64,000 nt of DNA from Nitrospirota bacterium. GTDB taxonomy: Bacteria; Nitrospirota; Thermodesulfovibrionia; Thermodesulfovibrionales; UBA9159. Below the pieces are notes generated by a model that saw only the letters and a program-made list of their open reading frames with translations, searched no databases and was not told the origin of the DNA. Positions 22,096 to 33,726 of this stretch are shown piece by piece. Made by a program: the position numbers and the translations under genes. The stretch's first letter is position 1, and each line of letters starts with the position of its first letter. The stretch is from assembly GCA_023475105.1 (NCBI GenBank), contig JAMCWJ010000101.1:1-64000 (forward strand), written 5' to 3'.

Positions 22096-22161
22096 TGTCA
22101 TTCCCGCTTGTCGGGAATCCTTCTTGCAGCAAAGAAAGATGCCGGACAAGCCGGCATGACA
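22096..22161. repeat. REP-like paired palindrome, copy R1
   Basis: TGTCATTCCCGCTTGTCGGGAATC...GATGCCGGACAAGCCGGCATGACA. Confidence 0.9.
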
Positions 22162-24352: not shown

Positions 24353-24414
24353 TGTCATTGCGGCTTGTCCGCAATCCTTCTGAAAGAAAAGATTCCCGAC
24401 AAGCGGGAATAACA
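24353..24414. repeat. REP-like paired palindrome, copy R2
   Basis: TGTCATTGCGGCTTGTCCGCAATC...GATTCCCGACAAGCGGGAATAACA. Confidence 0.88.
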
Positions 24415-25602: not shown

Positions 25603-27152
25603 TTCTTCTGACCCCCTTTATCATTTTGCTGTGAGGACTCAAAATCCTGCGATCCAAGGATTTGTCGAACCCGAGCCCGGGCTATTTCATAGTTCACCTC
25701 ATACCTGATAAGGCCGAACCTGGAGCCTGTCAGGTCCACTTGCGCCTGAAGCACATCCAGGCCTATGGCCTTGCCGTTACGATAAAGGGCCTGGGCGCTG
25801 GCGTATGCCTCTTCATTGGTGGCCACGGTCTGCCGGGTGGCAGCCACTCCTTGTCTGGCGTTTTCCTGGTCCTGCCAAGCGGTGGCAAGCTCTATTTTAA
25901 GGCTGTTAAGACGATCCCGTTTCCTTTCGAGCGATTGAAGGTACCGGGAAGAGGCCGCTGCCACTTGGGTTTTGGTCAAGCCACCCTCAAAAAATGGAAA
26001 CTCCATGAATACCCCTGCCAGCCACTCGCCTCTCGTCCCTCCGATATCCTGATGGCGAGTTCCGATGTCGCCCCGCAGACTCACCTCCGGGAAATAGGCC
26101 CCCTTTGCGGCTTTGACAAGAGTTTGGCTCTGCTGTATTTCCAGGTTTATTCTTCTAATTTCGGGGTTGCTTTTGAGCGTTGCCTGCCATAGGGAGTCGA
26201 TATCGGGCGCGGGGGGGAATTCCTCCGTAAGCCGGCCCCGGACATCCACCTGCACCTGTTCGTCTTCGTTCAAGCCTATGGTCCTGACCAGGATTTCCCT
26301 GGCAAGCCGTAAGGCGTTTTCTGTCTCCACTTTGGCCTGTTCAGCCTCTGAAACCAGGGACTTTGCCCGGAAGGAATCGAGCTGGGTGACTTTGCCGGCC
26401 TTGAAAAATGCCTCTGTGAGATTGAGAAACTCCTGTCGCTGCTTTAATGCCTCCTCTGCTACGTTAAGATTTTCTTTTGCTTCGACCACGCGGTAGAAGG
26501 CCGCCGTAACGGTAAACGCCACTTCGTCCCCGGTCCGCAGGACTTCCTGCTTCTGAGCTTCTGCGCCGATTTTAGCGGATTGAGCGCCGTAATAGGTTTT
26601 CCCGCCGTTAAAGAGTATCTGCTTGCCCGCAATGCCTGCAAACGCTTCGTCCTTGTTGAAGTCCTGGGTTGGCGACCCAGTGCTGCCTCCCGGAGGCAAC
26701 CGATTAGGCTCCAATCTTTCATAGTAGGACAGGAGAACGAGCTGGGGAAAAAATTGGGACTTAGCGGCCTGATAATCCGAAATCAATTCGCGGATCCTTT
26801 CTCTCGCTCCGCTCAGGGCCGGATTATACTTCCCTGCGAGTGCAAGGCAATCTTCGAGACTCAGTGACTGATAATCACTTTTCTGTGTTGTTTCAGCTTC
26901 GGCATTGGTGGTGAAAATTAATGTTGATAAAGACATAAGACATACAGTGACAATGATATTAAAAAGTGAAAAATAAACCGGCCACAGGCTCTCTAATTTA
27001 CTGTCATTGCGGCTTGTCCGTATTCTTTCTGCGGCGCCAAAGAAGGATTCCCGACAAGCGGGAATGACAGTGTCCTGGAGCAGGCTTTCACGTAATGTCC
27101 ATACGATATTGCAAATATTAAAAACTGCTAATTCTGTTCTGTTGGCGGACAT
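25599..27152 (-). CDS. TolC-family outer membrane efflux protein (true start uncertain; ORF runs through repeat R3)
   Basis: LSLEDCLALAGKYNPALSGARERI...; two TolC-type repeats. Confidence 0.88.
   Translation of the reverse strand: MSANRTELAVFNICNIVWTLRESLLQDTVIPACRESFFGAAERIRTSRNDSKLESLWPVYFSLFNIIVTVCLMSLSTLIFTTNAEAETTQKSDYQSLSLEDCLALAGKYNPALSGARERIRELISDYQAAKSQFFPQLVLLSYYERLEPNRLPPGGSTGSPTQDFNKDEAFAGIAGKQILFNGGKTYYGAQSAKIGAEAQKQEVLRTGDEVAFTVTAAFYRVVEAKENLNVAEEALKQRQEFLNLTEAFFKAGKVTQLDSFRAKSLVSEAEQAKVETENALRLAREILVRTIGLNEDEQVQVDVRGRLTEEFPPAPDIDSLWQATLKSNPEIRRINLEIQQSQTLVKAAKGAYFPEVSLRGDIGTRHQDIGGTRGEWLAGVFMEFPFFEGGLTKTQVAAASSRYLQSLERKRDRLNSLKIELATAWQDQENARQGVAATRQTVATNEEAYASAQALYRNGKAIGLDVLQAQVDLTGSRFGLIRYEVNYEIARARVRQILGSQDFESSQQNDKGGQKK
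27002..27069. repeat. REP-like paired palindrome, copy R3
   Basis: TGTCATTGCGGCTTGTCCGTATTC...GATTCCCGACAAGCGGGAATGACA. Confidence 0.88.
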
Positions 27153-29943: not shown

Positions 29944-30034
29944 GAATCTTAACTAAAAGGCCGCATCCGGGTTTCTCATGGATAGCCCCAACATATTGTA
30001 CTGGCTCATTGTGAATAGTAATACCCTCCTACTT

Positions 30035-30058
30035 TGTCATTCCGGCTTGTCCGGAATC
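30035..30058. repeat. REP-like half unit R4, left 24-bp terminal inverted repeat
   Basis: TGTCATTCCGGCTTGTCCGGAATC; exact reverse complement of 30479-30502. Confidence 0.95.
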
Positions 30059-30459
30059 TTTCCGACAATGTAGTCTCTTAACAAAGGATTCCCCTGCCTG
30101 ATAACTTCTATCTTACTTTGTCTGCTCATATTCTTTAGCTGTTTTTCCCGGATTATGGCGCTTCGGCTGTCCAGACAAATCTCATAATATACAAGCTTAT
30201 GCAGGTAGTACTTGGCCGTAAAGCAGCGGGGATTACTAAGGGGAACATAAGTAGGATACCTTTGAATGTCACTCCGGCTTGACCGGAGTCTCTCTTAAGA
30301 AGGATTCCCGACAAGCGGGAATGACATCCTACTAACGAACGTATTAGTAACATCGTTCTTATGCTCATAGACTCTCCGTATGAGATCATTGGTCACCCCG
30401 ACATACAAGGTCGGTCTCGCATTGGCCATGATATACACAGCAAAGATATTTTCTCTCAC
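30037..30459 (-). pseudogene. GIY-YIG nuclease-like gene interrupted by a REP-like element
   Basis: GTG start: [43 protein letters not shown]-[insert, one TAA][62 protein letters not shown]; both halves in the same frame. Confidence 0.88.
30267..30326. repeat. REP-like paired palindrome R5, inside the GIY-YIG frame
   Basis: TGTCACTCCGGCTTGACCGGAGTC...GATTCCCGACAAGCGGGAATGACA, flanked by AGTAGGAT (30250-30257) and ATCCTACT (30326-30333). Confidence 0.92.
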
Positions 30460-30478
30460 TCAGCCGGTATATCAGAAA

Positions 30479-30502
30479 GATTCCGGACAAGCCGGAATGA
30501 CA
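30479..30502. repeat. REP-like half unit R6, right 24-bp terminal inverted repeat
   Basis: GATTCCGGACAAGCCGGAATGACA. Confidence 0.95.
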
Positions 30503-30592
30503 TCGAAACAAAATTGGGATAACCACTCTATCTCGCATAGACCCATTAAAAAGCCGGATGCGCCACTAAAACTTTAAACAGGAGGTAATGAA

Positions 30593-33660: not shown

Positions 33661-33726
33661 TGTCATCCCCGCTTGTCGGGGATCTTTCTTTGTTTTCAGA
33701 AGGATTCCGGACGAGCCGGAATGACA
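33661..33726. repeat. REP-like paired palindrome, copy R7
   Basis: TGTCATCCCCGCTTGTCGGGGATC...GATTCCGGACGAGCCGGAATGACA. Confidence 0.9.

Follow-up and report, generated by a model that had tools for sequence, protein, structure and literature searches.

Site-specific single-stranded GIY-YIG nucleases, termed Ssn, reportedly cut at the Neisseria NTS repeat, as described in a 2025 paper in Nature Communications. CGTC-REPs are dispersed bacterial hairpins with a CGTC or TGTC tag, A-T pairs at the stem base, a stem of 8-9 bp, a loop of 4-5 nt and a CCA tail, and their superfamily includes Neisseria dRS3, which corresponds to the CGTC-1 repeats (Di Nocera et al. 2013, PMC3733652). The same 2013 survey assigned CGTC-REPs neither a dedicated enzyme or transposase nor an association with tyrosine transposases, and it located REPs mainly downstream of genes (PMC3733652).

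Here we analysed a stretch of 64,000 nucleotides from a Nitrospirota bacterium (the window; GCA_023475105.1, contig JAMCWJ010000101.1), in which a GIY-YIG gene lies between two TGTC-tagged palindromes. We interpret the locus as probably a degenerate transposon-like cassette, with an Ssn-like hairpin-specific nuclease and its sites as passengers, mobilised in trans. The features, in window coordinates, are as follows.

29952-29959, no strand: target-site duplication, left 8-bp copy, ACTAAAAG, 7/8 identical to the right copy
29960-30564, minus strand: 605-bp mobile element with the GIY-YIG gene and palindromes; same ends at unrelated sites, at least 8 copies; empty orthologous site in two relatives
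29960-29981, plus strand: terminal inverted repeat, GCCGCATCCGGGTTTCTCATGG, 18/22 identical to the other end
30035-30058, plus strand: TGTC-tagged palindrome, subterminal, at the gene's 3' end, TGTCATTCCGGCTTGTCCGGAATC; its minus strand supplies the codons for IPDKPE and the stop
30037-30459, minus strand: GIY-YIG nuclease gene, a pseudogene in the window copy; GTG at 30459 and stop codon at 30037-30039, with a MITE splitting the frame
30236-30347, no strand: 112-bp MITE (CTAAGGGG..CGTATTAG), inserted at TA (30234-30235 and 30348-30349)
30267-30290, plus strand: palindrome inside the MITE (TGTCACTCCGGCTTGACCGGAGTC)
30303-30326, minus strand: second palindrome of the MITE (minus-strand sequence TGTCATTCCCGCTTGTCGGGAATC), forming with 30267-30290 a REPIN-like inverted pair
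30479-30502, minus strand: TGTC-tagged palindrome, subterminal, on the upstream side of the gene; identical to 30035-30058 in inverted orientation
30543-30564, minus strand: terminal inverted repeat pairing with 29960-29981, minus-strand sequence GGCGCATCCGGCTTTTTAATGG
30565-30572, no strand: target-site duplication, right 8-bp copy, ACTAAAAC, 7/8 identical to the left copy

The initial annotation had taken the mobile unit to be the 468 bp bounded by the palindromes and had seen no target-site duplication. Alignment of copies within the source genome corrects both points: the element has clean ends well outside the palindromes, at separate terminal inverted repeats, which rejects the palindromes as element ends in this genome, and the true span of 605 bp (29960-30564) is flanked by an 8-bp duplication (7/8). 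End sites at 0 mismatches number eight of the left type and six of the right type, and therefore at least 8 cassette copies are present; several stop at contig ends, as expected where near-identical repeats break assembly. Read from the alignment, the 8-bp duplication is exact at C61 (AAATTTCT), is 7/8 at C19 as it is in the window, and matches across contigs from C11-left to C14-right (AAAAACAT) and from C14-left to C47-right (CCTTTCTA). The five duplications thus include one exact case, from a single resolved copy, as well as two at 7/8 and two that need contig ends to be joined, so that C14 may be an assembly chimera. On this contig, the flanks on either side of one cassette copy (L049, G000:C14:22039-22474) correspond to duplications seen at two other copies, and its upstream palindrome is fused to a MITE palindrome, reflecting either recombination between copies or an assembly chimera.

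The polymorphism between empty and filled sites that had been suggested as a check does exist. In two relatives, G029 (same family) and G024 (same order), gene order is the same and the element is absent from the orthologous site, a comparison that rests on flanks with about 68-84% identity; empty sites for the inner MITE are likewise present in the cassette copies C61 and C19. The cassette combines terminal inverted repeats and a target duplication with the lack of a transposase gene, which places it among mobile insertion cassettes or MITEs. No autonomous element with the cassette ends was found in the assembled genome (3 mismatches over 19 bases, or an 11-12 base end pattern) or in 60 relatives (2 mismatches), the other matches in this search looking like chance. 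Plasmids gave no match to the cassette DNA, and viral contigs gave no nuclease and one terminal-repeat match, which lies in unrelated sequence.

Since terminal inverted repeats together with an 8-bp duplication constitute a DDE-type signature, we infer that a DDE transposase acting in trans moves a MITE-like cassette, with the nuclease-REP unit as its passenger. Alternatively, the GIY-YIG protein itself might mobilise the 605-bp cassette and make its 8-bp duplications, being the sole gene in the element, with no other element found to share these ends. We regard this as highly improbable, because the same nuclease lineage is also present in relatives that lack these terminal repeats, staggered 8-bp duplications typically come from DDE transposases, and we know of no GIY-YIG protein that makes such duplications alone.

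As initially proposed, the minus strand of the window encodes a GIY-YIG protein, with a match to PF01541 above the cut-off (33.5 bits, read across one stop); the frame, however, is not continuous, as the 112-bp MITE at 30236-30347 splits this copy and leaves no intact gene. When the flanks of the MITE are joined in silico, an open frame results that ends in ..GKIPDKPE*, its last codons and stop being supplied, just as first described, by the palindrome at 30035. The MITE is absent at the equivalent point in the C61 and C19 copies, and its insertion is later than the cassette. The MITE family has about 20 related copies in the genome, each with an inverted hairpin pair (for example at C8:2065-2182, C69:78631-78749 and C109:59347-59464).

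None of the copies assembled in the source genome carries a fully intact nuclease gene: the C19 copy has frameshifts, the C61 copy (38.4 bits against PF01541, cut-off 22.6) is open only via two small deletions, and those of other copies are cut by contig ends. In relatives the gene is kept, as the median pN/pS of 0.19 in the close clade, computed with codons aligned from a common motif, indicates purifying selection. PF01541 is matched by 14 of 14 relatives, and Y2, Y12, G14, R22 and E60 are invariant (alignment A1) and correspond to the conserved Y, Y-G, R and E active-site positions; by analogy, these residues can be assigned putative catalytic roles. Assignment to UPF0213, made in the initial annotation, does not survive comparison: the UPF0213 protein 1zg2 scores just 23 bits with the family profile versus 118-145 bits for Pseudomonadota members, and no UPF0213-named model in NCBIfam matches the nuclease. 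A search by sequence returned no solved structure of the nuclease lineage, with UPF0213 and UvrC as distant matches.

The palindromes were correctly recognised as perfect 24-bp inverted copies: 30035-30058 reads TGTCATTCCGGCTTGTCCGGAATC, and 30479-30502 is the exact reverse complement of this sequence. This 24-mer occurs exactly 22 times in the 3.28 Mb genome, which holds 97 palindrome sites when up to 3 mismatches are allowed (reversed control pattern, 0), and the window contains 10 such hairpins, where shuffled sequence averages 0.3; the abundance is beyond chance in both. The window type consists of a TGTC tag, a 7-bp stem (ATTCC..GGAAT), a 5-nt loop and a CTT tail. Four more inverted pairs of the same hairpin family, REPIN-like in arrangement, lie in the window at 22096-22161, 24353-24414, 27002-27069 and 33661-33726, and their stem changes are often compensated on both sides. 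Another multi-copy sequence shows, at several places (L006, L007, L013, L015, L022), a hairpin pair enclosed by common flanks (GTTCCATGCAACGTTAAGG..).

Of 150 genomes in the order, 78 contain homologues of the nuclease, and others come from MAGs titled Nitrospirae, Chloroflexota, Alphaproteobacteria and Bacteroidetes. Hairpins were scored by a fixed rule, under which a GTCA tag with 6 or more perfect stem pairs after it had to lie within 160 bp. By this rule the 45 non-duplicate loci yielded an upstream hairpin in plus orientation at 29, a downstream hairpin in minus orientation at 32 and both at 25, with the opposite orientation at 3 and 3, versus an expected 0.012 per interval searched, taken from the rate in distant sequence of the same 45 loci, which are not all independent since some share one genome or are orthologous. 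Palindromes are thus much closer to these GIY-YIG genes than expected, as the initial annotation had required. The 29 Pseudomonadota loci gave 15 upstream in plus orientation, 17 downstream in minus orientation and 10 with both (22 of 29 with at least one in the expected orientation), with 3 upstream and 10 downstream in the opposite orientation and 0.033 expected. Lower-scoring GIY-YIG genes from the Pseudomonadota search, used as controls, had hairpins in 0 of 16 cases. Nine loci of the first set fail the hairpin rule; most of these, judged by eye and kept outside the counts, have the same arrangement, made up of hairpin-like repeats that carry a GTCA tag and an imperfect stem. On a 40-row tree, palindrome class changes 5 times against a shuffled mean of 18.8, a result that speaks to clustering and not to recognition specificity, as the classes were defined after the sequences were seen and related rows cluster by descent. 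It is well supported that the association between nuclease and palindrome is strong, mostly orientation-specific and clustered with nuclease lineage; with the controls, these properties give good support to the proposal that the GIY-YIG nuclease is tied to REP-like palindromes as RAYT is to its REPs.

The same data bear on two other explanations. The palindromes could be ordinary transcription or mRNA-end signals that flank a small gene by chance, which would agree with the mainly downstream location of REPs in the 2013 survey (PMC3733652) and with the overlap of the downstream palindrome and the stop codon. We find this quite improbable, given that palindromes also occur upstream, in a preferred orientation, that their sequence clusters with the nuclease lineage, and that they are absent from 16 of 16 other GIY-YIG genes. 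We give almost no credence to the idea that the palindromes belong, as REPs, to a tyrosine (Y1) transposase and have a secondary link to GIY-YIG: the genome does contain 11 Y1 transposase matches, one of which has a palindrome 244 bp upstream, but 0 of 11 are bracketed by palindromes, and the same holds for CGTC-REPs in the 2013 survey (PMC3733652).

Other arrangements were seen among the relatives. In six loci (L116, L131, L133, L169, L180 and L184) direct repeats, with exact common stretches of 38-51 bp, flank the nuclease gene; at L176 (G004:C24:14300-16500) what remains of a unit of one palindrome type seems to enclose a nuclease unit of a different type; and in L170-L173 (G060) the nuclease domain is missing from shortened derivatives that retain an upstream palindrome and, together with the downstream one, the last codons.

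A further possibility is that the mobile unit is the nuclease gene with its two palindromes, a GIY-YIG REPtron in which both hairpins would be cut in single-stranded DNA and the unit would re-enter other copies of the repeat. The recurrence of the gene-palindrome unit in several phyla without the cassette ends, its position between long direct repeats in several relatives and the apparent nesting at L176 are in its favour. Nevertheless, we consider it unlikely as an account of this locus, as the repeated unit in the source genome ends at the terminal inverted repeats, not at the palindromes, and GIY-YIG enzymes are hydrolytic, with no covalent intermediate for strand transfer.

We return to the passenger cassette as our preferred reading. 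The only gene of the 605-bp cassette is that of a small GIY-YIG nuclease, bracketed by two inverted TGTC/CGTC-tagged hairpins of the REP family, and this nuclease may recognise the hairpin and cut it as single-stranded DNA. Such cutting, as is said of Neisseria Ssn, would make the gene and its hairpins a nuclease-REP unit like RAYT and GTAG-REPs. More generally, we lean slightly towards the view that CGTC-tagged REPs are the recognition sites of the widespread GIY-YIG lineage that they bracket, and that a conventional transposon-like cassette has, in addition, taken up this unit as cargo. A candidate enzyme partner would then exist for a large class of hairpin repeats dispersed in bacteria, to which the 2013 survey assigned none. 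Where hairpin type follows the lineage of a partner nuclease, the origin and spread of the repeats become directly testable, and many natural nuclease-site pairs become available for comparison; in the cassette, a mobile element of another kind carries a nuclease-repeat unit. Should the general link already be covered by the 2025 Ssn work, the new part would be the cassette and the lineage-tracking test.

Taken together, these features allow the locus to be set against the known systems. Like mobile insertion cassettes and passenger MITEs, it has terminal inverted repeats, a target duplication and a passenger gene, and no transposase gene; unlike them, it shares its ends with no insertion sequence found in the genome or in 60 relatives, and its passenger is a repeat-linked nuclease. 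As in CGTC-REPs, the window palindromes have a T/CGTC tag at one end, A-T first stem pairs, a short loop and inverted dimers, and the hairpins of the locus lack an association with tyrosine transposases (0 of 11 Y1 genes bracketed). The window type differs from CGTC-REPs in its 7-bp stem and in having a CTT and not a CCA tail, and the relatives L102 and L103 have an 8-bp stem, a 4-nt loop and a CCA tail; unlike CGTC-REPs as surveyed in 2013, these hairpins bracket a specific GIY-YIG lineage. The locus resembles RAYT/REPtron and REPIN systems (PMC3116915) in that a small nuclease-type gene is bracketed by a genome-dispersed inverted hairpin repeat. It departs from RAYT/REPtron in that the enzyme is of the GIY-YIG type, not a Y1 transposase, and the tag is TGTC, not GTAG. 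By description, the likeness reaches to Ssn, where a small GIY-YIG protein with a single domain is likewise said to be linked to a palindromic repeat present in dispersed copies; unlike Ssn, the gene and hairpins here lie within a multi-copy transposon-like cassette.
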